From Anoxybacter fermentans (GTDB taxonomy: Bacteria > Bacillota > Halanaerobiia > DY22613): a DNA stretch of 64,000 nt. A model generated the notes under the pieces. That model saw only the letters and a list, made by a program, of their open reading frames with translations. It did not search any database and had not been told where the DNA came from. The stretch spans positions 2,108,001-2,172,000 of the forward strand of contig NZ_CP016379.1 of assembly GCF_003991135.1 (NCBI RefSeq), written 5' to 3'. Shown piece by piece: positions 12,874 through 59,715 of the stretch. Each line of letters starts with the position of its first letter. Positions within the stretch are counted from its first letter, which is position 1. Made by a program: the position numbers and the translations under genes.

Positions 12874-13081
12874 GATTTTACTACAAAAAACTAGTTTTTC
12901 GCTTGAAAAGAAATTTTTTAAACCATCTAAAGTTCGATTTTAGTTAAAATAAGGCACACTAATCAGACCCTTGATTGGCTCATCACCTTCTCATATGAGG
13001 CCTTATTTCTCCTTCAATCTCATTAAGAAGGTTAAACGAAAAATTTCTATATCACTCAAAATTAGCTTTTACAGTTTAATA
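12874..13081 (+). repeat. palindromic element copy A (221-bp family)
   Basis: A diverged copy of 208 bp in the orientation defined here as forward. It has the terminal GATTTTACTAC, the CAAAATTAGC arm on the right and a CTCATCACC apical segment. The first apical hairpin is shortened. No clear target duplication remains. Confidence 0.8.
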
Positions 13082-13138
13082 ATATATTTATAAACAAATG
13101 TTGTTTTCAACCTGTAAAAAATATAATTTCCTAAATAC

Positions 13139-21181: not shown

Positions 21182-21368
21182 GATTTTACTACAAAAAGCT
21201 AATTTTTCGCTTTAAAAGAAATTTTTCGAACCATCTAAAGTTCGATTTCAGTGACTTGATTAGCTCATCACATCCTGTAATGAGGCCTTATTTCGACTGA
21301 AATCTCACTAAGGATGGTTTAACGAAAAATTTCTATATCGCTCAAAATTAGCTTTTTGTAGTTTAATC
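21182..21368 (+). repeat. palindromic element copy B (221-bp family)
   Basis: A 187-bp forward copy flanked by the direct repeat ATTTCT (21176-21181 and 21369-21374). The first apical hairpin and part of the left arm are deleted between TTTCAGT and GACTTGATTAG; the second apical hairpin survives. Confidence 0.88.
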
Positions 21369-27225: not shown

Positions 27226-27446
27226 AGGTATACTGCAAAAAGCTAATTTTGAGCGACATAGAAATTTTTCGCCAAATCATCTTAGCGAGTTTTCCGACGA
27301 AATAAGGCCTCACCACAGGAGGTGGTGAGCTAATCAAGGGCCAGGAGGGTCCTTTGATTAGGAAGCCTTATTTCGGCGGAAATCGAGCTTTAGATGGTTC
27401 GAAAAATTTCTCAAGGAGCGAAAAAATAGCTTTTTGCAGTATAATC
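27226..27446 (-). repeat. palindromic element copy C (221-bp family)
   Basis: A full-length 221-bp copy in reverse orientation, with termini AGGTATACTGC and GCAGTATAATC. Both apical hairpins are intact; their loops read AGGAGG on the plus strand. No target duplication is evident. Confidence 0.92.
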
Positions 27447-33665: not shown

Positions 33666-33886
33666 TATCAAACTGCAAAAAGCAAATTTTTTACTTAAAA
33701 AGAAATTTTTTTAAACCATCTAACTTTCGCTTTCAGTCGAAATAAGGCACACTAACCAACGGGCCTTCTTGGCACTTGATTAGCTAATCAATCCTCATAT
33801 GAGGCCTTATTTCGATTAAAATCTCACTAAGATGGTTTAACGAAAAATTTCTATGTCGCTCAAAATTAGCTTTTTATAGTTTAATC
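33666..33886 (+). repeat. palindromic element copy D (221-bp family)
   Basis: A full-length 221-bp forward copy, flanked by the direct repeat ATTAAT (33660-33665 and 33887-33892). The sequence is diverged in the arms and apical hairpins, so it looks older than C, F and G. Confidence 0.88.
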
Positions 33887-34719: not shown

Positions 34720-34922
34720 GATTTTACTGTAAAAGCTAATTTTCCTAACCATCTAAAGTTCAATTTCAGTCGAAATAAGGCGCACTAATCAATGGGCCCT
34801 TCCGGCCCTTAGAACTAGCCCATCACATCCTGTAATGAGGCCTTATTTCGACTGAAATCTCACTAAGATAGTTAAACGTAAAATTTCTATGTCGCTTAAA
34901 ATTAGCTCTTTGCAGTTTAATC
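34720..34922 (+). repeat. palindromic element copy E (221-bp family)
   Basis: A 203-bp forward copy with a small deletion in the left arm (after GCTAATTTTCC). It is flanked by the direct repeat ATGTAA (34714-34719 and 34923-34928). Hairpin 1 reads GGGCCCTTCCGGCCC. Confidence 0.9.
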
Positions 34923-35633: not shown

Positions 35634-35854
35634 GGTTAAACTGCAAAAAGCTAATTTTTCACTTCTTGAGAAATTTTTCGAATCATCTAAAGCTCGATTT
35701 CCGCCGAAATAAGGCTTCCTAATCAAAGGGCCCTCCTGGCCCTTGATTAGCTCATCACCTCCTGTGATGAGGCCTTATTTCGTCGGAAATCTCGCTAAGA
35801 TGATTTGGCGAAAAATTTCTATGTCGCTCAAAATTAGCTTTTTGCAGTATAATC
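35634..35854 (+). repeat. palindromic element copy F (221-bp family), reference forward copy
   Basis: A full-length 221-bp copy. Left end GGTTAAACTGCAAAAAGC, right end reading inward GATTATACTGCAAAAAGC. Hairpin 1 spans 35718-35750 (CTAATCAA to TTGATTAG); hairpin 2 spans 35750-35771 (CTCATCAC CTCCT GTGATGAG). Flanks ATCTTT and ATCATT differ at one base. Confidence 0.93.
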
Positions 35855-49047: not shown

Positions 49048-51483
49048 TTAACCCTTCACTACAATATTTACAATCTTCTTCGGTACATAAATCTCCTTAA
49101 CTATAGTCTTACCTTCAATATGCTTCTGCACATTGGAGAGTTCTTTTGCTTTAGTAAGGATTTCTTCTTTTGATGCATTAACATCAATTACCAATGTATC
49201 ACGTACTTTACCATTAACCTGTATAGGGAGCTCCATCTCCTGTGTAACCAGCATCTCTGGATCGTATTCCGGCCATTTTTCAGTAAAGATACTTTCATTA
49301 TGACCCAGAATTTCCCACAATTCCTCACTTAAATGTGGAGTAAACGGTGCTAAGAGCAATACTAAAGTCTCTATAGAAGCCCGGTCAACACCAGTTTCCC
49401 TTTGTTTGCTTAAGAAATTAACATAGGACATGAAAGCACTTACAGCGGTATTCAACTTCATCTCTTCGATTCTCTCAGTTACATCTTTGATCAAACCGTG
49501 ACGGGCACGTTCTAACTCTTTAGTAGGTTCAATAAATTTACCTTCTTCCACAATCTCAGTGATTAGATTCCAGGTCCGGTTTAAGAAACGGGCTACACCT
49601 TCAAATCCCTGGTCACTCCACTCTACATCCACTTCAGGTGGACCAATAAAGAGTTCATAGAGGCGGATAGCGTCACGACCGTATTTTTCTATCAGTTCAT
49701 CAGGGCTTACCACATTACCCTTAGATTTACTCATCTTGGCACCATCTTTATAGATCATACCCTGATTGAAGAGACGTTTAAATGGTTCTTTAAAATCTAC
49801 TACACCGATATCATAAAGGAATTTGGTAAAGAAACGTGCATAAAGTAGATGCAGAATTGCATGTTCCACACCACCTACATAAAGGTCAACCGGCATCCAC
49901 TTTTTCATTGCTTTTTTACTAAACGGCTCCTCGGTATTGTGAGGATCAGGATAACGCAGGAAGTACCAGGAAGATCCAGCCCATTGAGGCATGGTATCAG
50001 TTTCACGTTTAGCAGGCCCACCACATTCAGGACAGGTGGTATTAACCCATTCTTCAATGGCAGCTAATGGTGATTCACCTGTACCAGTTGGTTCATAACT
50101 TTCTACATCAGGTAAACGAACGGGTAATTCTTCCTCAGGAACAGCAACCATTCCACACTTCTCACAGTGAATAATAGGAATCGGTTCCCCCCAATACCGT
50201 TGACGGGAGAAAACCCAGTCACGTAACTTATAGTTTACTGTAGCTTTACCAATCCCTCTGTCAGCAAGATATTGGGTGACTTTCTTTTTACCCTCTTCCC
50301 AATCAAGTCCTGTAAACTCACCGGAATTAACCATCTTACCTGGCCCGGTATATGCTTCTTTCAAATCTTCAGCTTCGAAAGTTTCCCCATCAGGACGGAT
50401 AACAACTTTAATAGGTAGGCCAAACTCTTTTGCAAATTCAAAATCCCGCTGATCATGAGCCGGAACAGCCATAATTGCACCAGTTCCATAATCCATCAAT
50501 ACATAGTCAGAAATCCAGATGGGCAATTTCTCACCATTGATAGGATTAATTGCATAAGCACCGGTGAAAACGCCGGTCTTTTTCTTATCTTCAATCATAC
50601 GCTCAACATTAGACTTTTTCAAAGTCTCATCCACATATTTCTCTACTGAAGTTTTTTGCTCAGGAGTGGTGATTTTTTCTACCACTGGATGTTCAGGAGC
50701 AAGAACCATATAGGTAGCACCAAAAAGGGTATCAGGACGGGTGGTAAAAACAGTAATAGTTTCATCATGCCCATCAACTTTGAAAGTAATTTCAGCACCT
50801 TCACTCCGACCAATCCAGTTGGTCTGCATCTTTTTAACTTTCTCAGGCCAATCAAGATCTTTTAAATCATCCAGCAACCGCTGAGCATATGCTGTAATCT
50901 TCAACATCCACTGTTTCAAATTTTTCTTGGTAATCTCAGCACCACAGCGTTCACAGCAACCATTTACAACCTCTTCATTGGCAAGGCCAGTCTTACATTC
51001 GGGGCACCAATTAATAGGCATTTCTTTACGATATGCTAATCCTTTTTTAAACATCTGGACAAAAATCCACTGGGTCCATTTGTAATATTCAGGATCAGTA
51101 GTATTAATTTCCCTTGACCAGTCATACATGGCACCAATATCCTTAAGCTGGCGCTTGAAATTCTCTATATTAGTTTTAACTGCTTTAGCTGGGTGAATCT
51201 TATTCTGAATAGCATAGTTCTCAGCAGGAAGACCAAAAGCGTCCCATCCCATTGGGTGTAAAACATTATATCCCTGTAAAGTCTTATAACGACTCCAGAC
51301 ATCACTTAATACATATCCGCGCCAGTGACCTACATGGAGCCCGGAACCTGAAGGATATGGAAACATATCAAGACAATAATACTTGGGCCTGGGATCATCA
51401 TCATTGGCCTGGTGCATTTTTTTTTCTTCCCAATACTTTTGCCATTTGGGTTCAATTTCCTGTGGATTATACTTACGTGCCAT
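49048..51483 (-). CDS. leuS: leucyl-tRNA synthetase
   Basis: This 811-aa class I synthetase charges tRNA-Leu. It shows the HIGH-equivalent [16 protein letters not shown] near 49, the editing domain ([20 protein letters not shown] near 250) and KMSKSKGN near 570. I chose the ATG at 51483, which lies 9 bases after AGGAGG; the ATG nine bases earlier abuts the ribosome site. It has a T-box leader and a consensus promoter. Length is normal. Confidence 0.97.
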
Positions 51484-51527
51484 TTTACTCATCCTCCTTT
51501 AATACCGTTTAAATTTTAAAAACTGTA

Positions 51528-51804
51528 AAAAATAAAAGTCTTTCATCTCTCAAGAGACGAAAGACTTTGCTTCCGCGGTACCACTCTTGTTGGCAGATTA
51601 ACCTTCTGCCCACTCATGGCTGTAAATACACAGCTCCAGGATAACGGCCTGTAACCGTTCAGAGCTACTTATTTCACTCTGACAGCTCCAGGGCGAGTTC
51701 GCCAATTCAGAAGGCTGCCTTGCACCACCCGGCAGCTCTCTGTACTTCTGAGGATTGACTACTACTCCCCTTCACAGCCTTTTCACTTAATTGATTTTTC
51801 TCAC
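51528..51804 (-). promoter_or_regulatory. T-box riboswitch leader of leuS
   Basis: On the minus strand the T-box AGAGTGGTACCGCGG lies at about 51570-51586, followed by a terminator AGTCTTTCGTCTCT/AGAGATGAAAGACT with a T-run (to about 51530). Upstream stem I sequence includes GAACTCGCC, in which CTC could be a leucine specifier. This last point is a guess. Confidence 0.92.
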
Positions 51805-51873: not shown

Positions 51874-52094
51874 GATTAAACTGCAAAAAGCTAATTTTGA
51901 GCGACATAGAAATTTTTCGCTAAACCATCTTAGCGAGATTTCCGACGAAATAAGGCCTCATTACAGGAGGTAATGAGCTAATCAAGGGCCAGGAGGGCCC
52001 TTTGATTAGGAAGCTTTATTTCGGCGGAAATCGAGCTTTAGATGGTTCGAAAAATTTCTCAAGGAGCGAAAAATTAGCTTTTTGCAGTTTAACC
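51874..52094 (-). repeat. palindromic element copy G (221-bp family)
   Basis: A full-length 221-bp reverse copy flanked by the direct repeat AAATAT (51868-51873 and 52095-52100). The right flank touches the stop codon of the metallophosphoesterase gene. Both apical hairpins are intact; the second is CTCATTAC paired with GTAATGAG. Confidence 0.93.
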
Positions 52095-53314: not shown

Positions 53315-53434
53315 ACACTACCTCCTTATGAACTCAAATTGTTATATCTTTTTAAATTCGGTGAAAATCATAAATTCCCTTCTTTTCTTAAAAAATACTT
53401 TTCCTTATCACAATCTTTCCTTCACATAATCTAT

Positions 53435-53573
53435 AATTTTACTGTAAAAAGCTAATTTTTCATTTTAAAAGAAATTTTTCGAACCATCGAAATGGGTCTT
53501 CCTGGCCCTTTATTAGCTCATCACAGTCTGTGATGAGGCCTTATTTCTCCTTCCATCTCACTAAGATGGTTTA
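53435..53573 (+). repeat. palindromic element copy H (221-bp family), truncated
   Basis: Forward copy keeping the left end AATTTTACTGT, part of the left arm, hairpin 2 (CTCATCAC AGTCT GTGATGAG) and the start of the right arm, up to GATGGTTTAG. The right terminus is lost. Sequence from there to 53813 has no recognised feature. Confidence 0.8.
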
Positions 53574-53813
53574 GATTACTCTTTTTTTTGTTAATATTTT
53601 CATATCACCCATTATTTTTTAACTTCCTTATAAAATATCTTCTTTTAGCTTCTTCCGTGAATATTCAAAATATGGAAGTATATAAACATATTGAAAAACT
53701 GTTTTTAACCGAATTTTCTTTGCCAAATCTTCATTACAAGTTCCATCTTTAAAAAATTGATGTTTCAATAAAGGAGGGGCTAAACAATTGGTACATATCC
53801 ATTTTTTATTAAC

Positions 53814-54769: not shown

Positions 54770-55112
54770 AAGGGAATTTCAGAATTAGTAAAACCATCAA
54801 CTATTTTCAATATATTGTGTTAATATCCTCTTAATATACACAATATGTTGACTTGTAATGTTCAAAAATTTAATCATGATTATACTGCAAAAAGCTAATT
54901 TTGAGCGACATAGAAATGTTTCGCTAAATCTTTGCGAGATTTCCGACGAAATAAGGCCTCATCACGGGAGGTGATGAGCTAATCAAGGGCCAGAAGGGTC
55001 CTTTGATTAGGAAGCCTTATTTCGGCGAAAACTGAGCTTTAAATGGTTCAAAAAATTTTTCAAGAAGCGAAAAATTGGCTTTTTACAGTTTAACCAATTA
55101 TGAAATTCCCTT
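54770..55112 (+). repeat. 119-bp repeat copy M2a, interrupted by palindromic element I
   Basis: The left part (54770-54877) starts AAGGGAATTTC and the right part (55096-55112) ends GAAATTCCCTT. Uninterrupted copies M2b and M2c show the parts are one sequence. Outer flanks AAAATT (54764-54769 and 55113-55118) form a 6-bp direct repeat. Confidence 0.85.
54878..55095 (-). repeat. palindromic element copy I (221-bp family), inserted in another repeat
   Basis: A 218-bp reverse copy, from GATTATACTGC to ACAGTTTAACC. It splits repeat M2a and is flanked by AATCAT (54872-54877) and AATTAT (55096-55101), a 6-bp target duplication with one substitution. This gives direct insertion evidence. Confidence 0.93.
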
Positions 55113-55149
55113 AAAATTTTTAAATGTATTTAATGAATCATCATAAAAC

Positions 55150-55629: not shown

Positions 55630-55749
55630 TATTTTAAATCACTCCTATAATCGTATTAAACTCAACTTTTGGTTATTTCTCAGATATATCAATTTAGTTC
55701 TCGCCATATTTGTAAAATCCTTTTGATAAAAATAGAAATAAATAAAAAA

Positions 55750-56206
55750 GGGGCTGTGGGGCTATCCCAAAAGTAATTGAGGGAATTTCATAATTAAATT
55801 TTTAAACATTATAAGTCAACATATTGTGTATATTAAGATGATAGCAACACAATATATTGAAAATGGTTAATAGTTTTGCTAATTATGAAATTCCCTTAAT
55901 TAATTACTTTTGGCATGGCCTCCTTTTTTCATTGTTCATTTAAATTCATCAGATTCATCCTTTCTATAGCTGAATTTACCACTCTTACCAAATGATTCTC
56001 AGGAATAAACACATCAAAACTCAAAGGCAACATTGTTTGATTCATGTTATACTCAATAAACGTTTTTTTATTATAATTTCTCCTTTTCATATTTATATTT
56101 TATACCATATAAAAAAGGTGTTGTCTTTATAAAAATTTCTGACAATACCTTTCTTTTAACATTTAACTTTTGGAGCCATAAAGGAATTTTTAAGACAGCC
56201 CCATAA
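55750..56206 (-). mobile_element. remnant of an IS1182-like element
   Basis: The left end reads GGGGCTGT and the right end, reading inward, GGGGCTGTCTTAAAAATTCC. Within it, 55929-56090 encodes the N-terminus of an IS1182 transposase (RRNYNKKTFIEYNMNQ, LPLSFDVFIPENHLVRVV), stopping after 53 codons. The rest of the gene is gone, and repeat M2b sits in the gap. Confidence 0.7.
55779..55897 (+). repeat. 119-bp repeat copy M2b
   Basis: An uninterrupted copy with inverted ends GAGGGAATTTC and GAAATTCCCTT, inside an IS1182-like remnant. It shares the internal CACAATATATTGAAA segment with M2a and M2c in inverse orientation. Confidence 0.75.
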
Positions 56207-59596: not shown

Positions 59597-59715
59597 AAGG
59601 GAATTTCATAATTAGCAAAACTATCAACTATTTTCAATATATTGTGTTGCTATCCCCTTAATATACACAATATGCTGACTTGTAATGTTTAAAAATTTAA
59701 TTATGAAATTCCCTC
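59597..59715 (+). repeat. 119-bp repeat copy M2c, uninterrupted
   Basis: An intact copy with inverted ends AAGGGAATTTCATAATTA and TAATTATGAAATTCCCT. It preserves the sequence into which copy I inserted elsewhere (TTTAATTATGAAATT). Confidence 0.8.

Follow-up and report, generated by a model that had tools for sequence, protein, structure and literature searches.

In the window, i.e., the whole analyzed stretch of 64,000 nucleotides of the Anoxybacter fermentans genome, the short repeat M2a is split by a sequence belonging to a 221-bp repeat family (copy I). This raises the question of how copy I came to lie within another repeat, and of what kind of element the family is and what it carries. 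It was confirmed that copy I was inserted into M2a with a target duplication. The initial annotation had proposed both that copy I splits M2a and that the site AATTAT was duplicated, and both proposals held. The left junction reads TTT-AATCAT followed by GATTATACTG, and the right junction reads CAGTTTAACC followed by AATTAT-GAAATT. Paralogous M2 copies of the same genome were used as empty sites, and alignment of the M2a flanks with M2c and M2b was continuous, with no gap: M2a without copy I and without one 6-mer is a gapless M2, and its junction is the same as in five other M2 copies. M2b, M2c and three more genomic M2 copies all share the sequence AAAAATTTAATTATGAAATTC, and AATTTAATTATGAAATTC is identical across M2b, M2c, three other genomic M2 copies and the element-free M2a flanks. 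Since element-free M2a is continuous with the other M2 copies, AATTAT is taken as the ancestral site and the T-to-C change in the left duplicate as a later event. At the orthologous M2a site, the element-free sequence would be expected to read TTTAATTATGAAATT.

Note that the M2a junction taken alone could be shifted by 2 bases, because GA is present on both sides. The ends common to the whole family resolve this ambiguity and set the duplication at 6 bp. Small internal deletions account for the length of copy I, which is 218 bp rather than 221 bp. A natural insertion for which the empty sequence is known makes the element ends and the duplication length certain. The coordinates of the features are given in the table.

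Table. Features of the split repeat M2a, of copy I and of the other family copies in the window
Feature	Position	Strand	Evidence or remark
M2a, split repeat	54770-55112		interrupted by 218-bp element at 54878-55095
M2a left part, ends in left target duplicate	54770..54877	+	92% identity to M2c positions 1-110; empty-site alignment
left target duplicate AATCAT, one change vs AATTAT	54872..54877	+	sequence; empty-site alignment
copy I of 221-bp MITE family, 218 bp, ends GATTATACTG and CAGTTTAACC	54878..55095	+	
conserved branched core (TwoAYGGAY-like fold) of copy I	54914..55060	+	model R1, 139.7 bits
hairpin 1 of copy I, CTCATCAC-GGGAG-GTGATGAG, loop GGGAG; family loop AGGAG	54958..54978	+	sequence and consensus fold
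hairpin 2 of copy I, loop AGAAG, GGA lost; family loop AGGAG	54979..55010	+	sequence and consensus fold
right target duplicate AATTAT	55096..55101	+	sequence; empty-site alignment
M2a right end	55096..55112	+	empty-site alignment
M2b, undisturbed M2, paralogous empty site	55779..55897	-	95% identity to M2c
M2c, undisturbed M2, paralogous empty site	59597..59715	+	empty-site alignment
decayed family copy	53432..53578	-	R1, 54 bits
family copy, target duplicates AAATAT both sides	51874..52094	+	R1, 169 bits
family copy, duplicates AATGAT/AAAGAT	35634..35854	-	
diverged family copy, duplicates TTACAT both sides	34720..34922	-	
diverged family copy, duplicates ATTAAT	33666..33886	-	
family copy, no clear duplication	27226..27446	+	
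short variant, 187 bp, duplicates AGAAAT both sides	21182..21368	-	
diverged family copy	12880..13083	-	

The repeat M2, 119 bp long and with inverted ends AGGGAATTTCATAATTA, is MITE-like as well and occurs at about 8 genomic places. M2a and two other copies (L229 and L231) are flanked by TA left and right, the pattern expected of an element that targets TA. M2b lies centrally in a larger inverted repeat (window positions 55740-55935, CCAAAAGTAATT...AATTACTTTTGG) with a terminal T run, which resembles a terminator hairpin. Elsewhere in the genome (L230/L232, G000:C1:933801-934760), a 186-bp family copy with the 8-bp duplication ATGTTGAT adjoins the right half of M2; this site at C1:934 kb was rejected as a second nested empty-site case, because the left half of M2 is missing. 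In addition, the window contains a T-box leader (RF00230, 144.8 bits) on the minus strand at 51550-51784, upstream of an 814-aa ORF at 49048-51492.

The number of family copies in the host genome, which is a single contig of 3.56 Mb, was estimated from twenty evenly spaced 20-kb samples and from pattern counts. The samples contained 67 copies, which corresponds to about 600 copies genome-wide, and the family accounted for 2.9% of the sampled sequence, which puts it at about 3% of the genome. A 25-base end pattern gave 906 matches genome-wide, and its reversed control gave none. The family has terminal inverted repeats GRTTWWACTGYAAAAAGC, and both ends could be paired in 77 copies. In 33 of these 77, the flanks contained exact duplications (6 bp, n = 25; 7 bp, n = 7; 8 bp, n = 1) with the target consensus ATWWAT, whereas shuffling the right flanks among the copies yielded at most 6 duplications of 6-8 bp in any of 1000 trials. 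An exact duplication was found in only about 44% of the two-ended copies, and none was found in the others. Insertion with a 6-bp duplication had been claimed for the whole family from the M2a site; insertion with duplication applies family-wide, and the length is refined to 6-8 bp, usually 6 bp. None of 76 copies lay mostly within a predicted ORF, although the sample is 79% coding. By length, the copies group at 221 bp, about 205 bp, about 186 bp and 135 bp (range 135-224 bp), and they contain no transposase gene. The 221-bp family is thus a non-autonomous MITE.

Two arrangements of family copies were also observed. At one locus (L012, 400-813), two copies are arranged head to tail with 6 bp between them, which looks like insertion of one at the edge of the other. 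A tandem array of units of about 2.1 kb with 85-96% identity (G000:C1:1943440-1981599, L224-L226) contains a copy of the 221-bp element per unit, all on the same strand, with 17 copies in total, mostly spaced at about 2.1 kb. Those of its 360-390-aa ORFs that were tested gave no match when compared with Pfam.

Like QMITE1/2 of Coxiella (PMC5896051) and MITEAba12 (PMC6382973), the family is short and non-coding, with inverted ends and target duplications. However, the Coxiella QMITEs amount to about 50 copies per family and 0.9% of the genome, compared with about 600 copies and about 3% here, and the 221-bp family differs from known MITEs in a conserved branched interior that is common to several bacterial families. 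QMITEs give rise to small RNAs (PMC5896051).

The source of the MITE is probably an IS1182-like element. Two decayed IS remnants in the host genome bear the family termini: one of 1650 bp, frameshifted and with family termini at both ends (L109, 1019-2668), and a fragment in L126. Intact or near-intact relatives occur in the class, for example the 1870-bp element L110 (genome G046), with inverted ends that are similar to those of the family, such as GATTGCACTGCGAAAAGTCTAA. Four copies of the intact relatives are flanked by the duplications ATAGAT, ATTTTAAT, ATTATT and AACTAT (6-8 bp). The L110 transposase contains the Pfam domains DUF772 and DDE_Tnp_1_6 and is nearest to IS1182 (172.7 bits with NF033551, which has a cut-off of 270). 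The shared ends and the agreement in duplication length lead us to infer that the transposase of such an element moves the MITE. The nearest transposase family and the element length of 1.65-1.9 kb are as in IS1182, but the L110 transposase scores below the family cut-off, and the duplications of 6-8 bp differ from the 4 bp of the IS1182 member ISPse1 (PMC3281130), so the source is named IS1182-like only.

A single-protein scan of the genome contigs for the IS partner gave no match, and no intact partner was found in the host genome. Since the host IS copies that were recovered are all decayed, the family may now be immobile in this host. The commonest DDE element of the host (521 aa, about 19 copies) was rejected as the partner, because the family ends do not delimit its copies. 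These copies (L079-L097, host genome G000) encode a 521-aa DDE_Tnp_1 transposase, are 97-99% alike and appear to have been active recently, whereas the probable partner of the MITE is decayed. A search for the element in plasmids and phages gave no match. In another genome (G026), a group II intron match (RF00029, 58.4 bits, L199 338-414) was found about 1.1 kb from an element copy.

The consensus of the family folds into one long helix leading to a three-way junction with two AGGAG-loop hairpins (-114 kcal/mol), and the consensus loops of both hairpins were AGGAG in 46 copies of the host genome. A sequence search revealed diverged relatives in other families of the class (70-73% identity). 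The covariance model R1 found the core in 19 of 59 class genomes, representing 13 genera, and gave matches in other families of the phylum (other Bacillota) as well. When the genome collection was scanned with a strict pattern, matches came from Halanaerobiales only (Halanaerobium sp. MA284, Candidatus Frackibacter sp. WG13 and a Halanaerobiales MAG). The terminal sequences vary between genera while the core persists. The stems covary: both partners are replaced in 25 of 44 pairs, and shuffling gave a mean of 38 such cells compared with the 131 observed. The loops are constant across the relatives (mostly A[G/C]GAN, some ANGGAN). In Halanaerobium, the hairpin 1 loop is often ACGAN, not GGA. 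An unpaired tandem G.A step (5' YGA, 3' GAR) is kept across genera, and the motifs 5' CTTRRYGA and 3' GARYYTTAG are present in most representatives. Elements of three other genomes (G003, G017 and G147) have duplications of 6-7 bp (ATTAAT, ATATTAT, ATAACT and AAAATT). In four further genomes (G012, G009, G021 and G027), multi-copy relatives of the core (L207, L209, L210 and L212) have one simple hairpin and no GGA loop, i.e., a simplified fold.

By its architecture and its motifs, the interior of the MITE is related to TwoAYGGAY RNA (RF01731, clan CL00106, together with CsrB and CsrC). Both contain tandem G.A within a long helix and two adjacent hairpins with GGA-type loops. The RF01731 loops have 6 nt (AYGGAY), whereas those of the MITE family usually have 5 nt (AGGAN). 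Copies of the host genome, the window copy included, gave no match to RF01731 even at an E-value of 10 (gathering cut-off, 43 bits), and the host copies are not filed as RF01731 members because none of them reaches this model. A copy of the Halanaerobium group (L205) scored 30.4 bits with RF01731 exactly over the element, which is below the cut-off, and two loci from other Bacillota that R1 had found independently (L251 and L252) scored above it, with 49.6 and 50.8 bits. In the reverse test, R1, the training set of which contained no RF01731 loci, recovered 11 of 30 RF01731 loci, with position and strand in agreement. RF01731 occurs in 50 of 399 phylum genomes, and in many of them all six scored candidates match. 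Many canonical RF01731 loci are closed by inverted ends. However, the canonical loci that were examined have no clear target duplications, while the fold described here lies within an element with duplications of 6-8 bp.

In PMC2864571, TwoAYGGAY is listed as a probable RNA from human gut, gamma-Proteobacteria and Clostridiales, and the later study PMC4333381 notes tandem GAs and two CsrA-binding motifs for it and predicts CsrA-binding RNAs in Clostridia. The passages on TwoAYGGAY in these two papers and the Rfam papers that were consulted do not mention mobility. What is new here is a high-copy MITE with a TwoAYGGAY-type fold as its interior, which was missed in the initial annotation. The 5S rRNA expansion segments of Halanaerobiales were rejected as an identity for the fold, because they are unbranched inserts in 5S genes for which no repeats are described.

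It is plausible, judging from loop motifs and gene content, that the RNA of the core could bind CsrA. The alignment showed that the C-AGGAN-G pentaloop matches the Rfam CsrB consensus. Such pentaloop hairpins are a feature of CsrB, CsrC and RsmZ, but the MITE core differs from these RNAs in having two hairpins only, in one branched fold that is dispersed and mobile. The host genome contains csrA (G000:C1:2465407-2465559), and the gene was found in 18 of 19 genomes with the element versus 23 of 40 others (Fisher p = 0.005, without phylogenetic correction).

Signs of selection on single copies were also considered. Among the stem mismatches of the 46 host copies, A-C (107) and G-T (96) are equally common. 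Across lineages, G-T exceeds A-C by 29 to 13 in an alignment that is structure-fitted and so leans that way. The orientation of copies relative to flanking co-directional genes showed no bias (28 to 27). A cis-acting role of single copies was rejected, given the lack of an orientation bias and of a G-T excess in the host, as well as the loss of the hairpin 2 GGA in copy I. Exact duplications were found at five of eight copies of 135-136 bp that have no hairpins. Since selection for orientation or for one strand is not seen in single copies, and derivatives without hairpins moved nonetheless, the hairpins look like cargo. Cargo with an effect at the RNA level is most likely the right reading, with CsrA binding as the best candidate that can be named. 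A wider and rather doubtful possibility is that TwoAYGGAY-type RNAs are CsrA binders spread by transposons. The burst of about 600 copies with up to two hairpins each would then plant intergenic CsrA sites, read-through transcripts would titrate CsrA, and TwoAYGGAY as a whole would be a mobile-element family, not a conventional small RNA.

The interior could instead be functionless and the family an ordinary MITE, in which template switching at replication keeps the arms of the quasi-palindrome alike and the resemblance to TwoAYGGAY amounts to similar hairpins only. The equal frequencies of the two mismatch types in the host, the random orientation of the copies and the duplications around hairpin-less copies agree with this, but palindrome correction would erase the tandem G.A mismatch, which is nevertheless kept across genera. 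In addition, the loops are constant while the stems change, and R1 finds RF01731 loci on which it was not trained. We consider a functionless interior unlikely. The hairpins could also serve transposition at the DNA level, through cruciform or single-strand recognition by the transposase, with no role as RNA. Against this stand the duplications of the hairpin-less derivatives, the intact element L110, which has no such hairpins beside its ends, and the inverted ends, which differ between genera while the core is constant. A DNA-level role is thus quite improbable, even though the fold is kept in amplifying lineages and decays without strand bias in single copies, as if only mobility were selected. 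As for the locus itself, copy I and its M2 neighbors might have been brought together by recombination, the 6-mers being alike by chance. The one-base difference between the left and right 6-mers and the AT-rich surroundings would suit such an origin, but it is extremely improbable, since M2 is exactly continuous without the element and one 6-mer and the same type of duplication marks the whole family.

On balance, it is likely that copy I represents a mobile MITE that depends on an IS1182-like transposase and carries a TwoAYGGAY-related fold as RNA cargo, most likely binding CsrA. The transposase would act on the inverted ends and move the 221-bp MITE between genes, producing duplications of 6-8 bp. 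The conserved branched fold would ride between the ends as cargo dispensable for transposition and would act as RNA upon sense transcription of a copy, and the sense RNA would most likely bind CsrA through the pair of hairpins. The empty-site proof at M2a thereby becomes a lead on an Rfam family of unknown function. If this explanation is true, the multi-copy distribution of TwoAYGGAY would be explained and its annotation as a cis-regulatory RNA would have to be revised, and the family would be a case of a transposon carrying a regulator-binding RNA.
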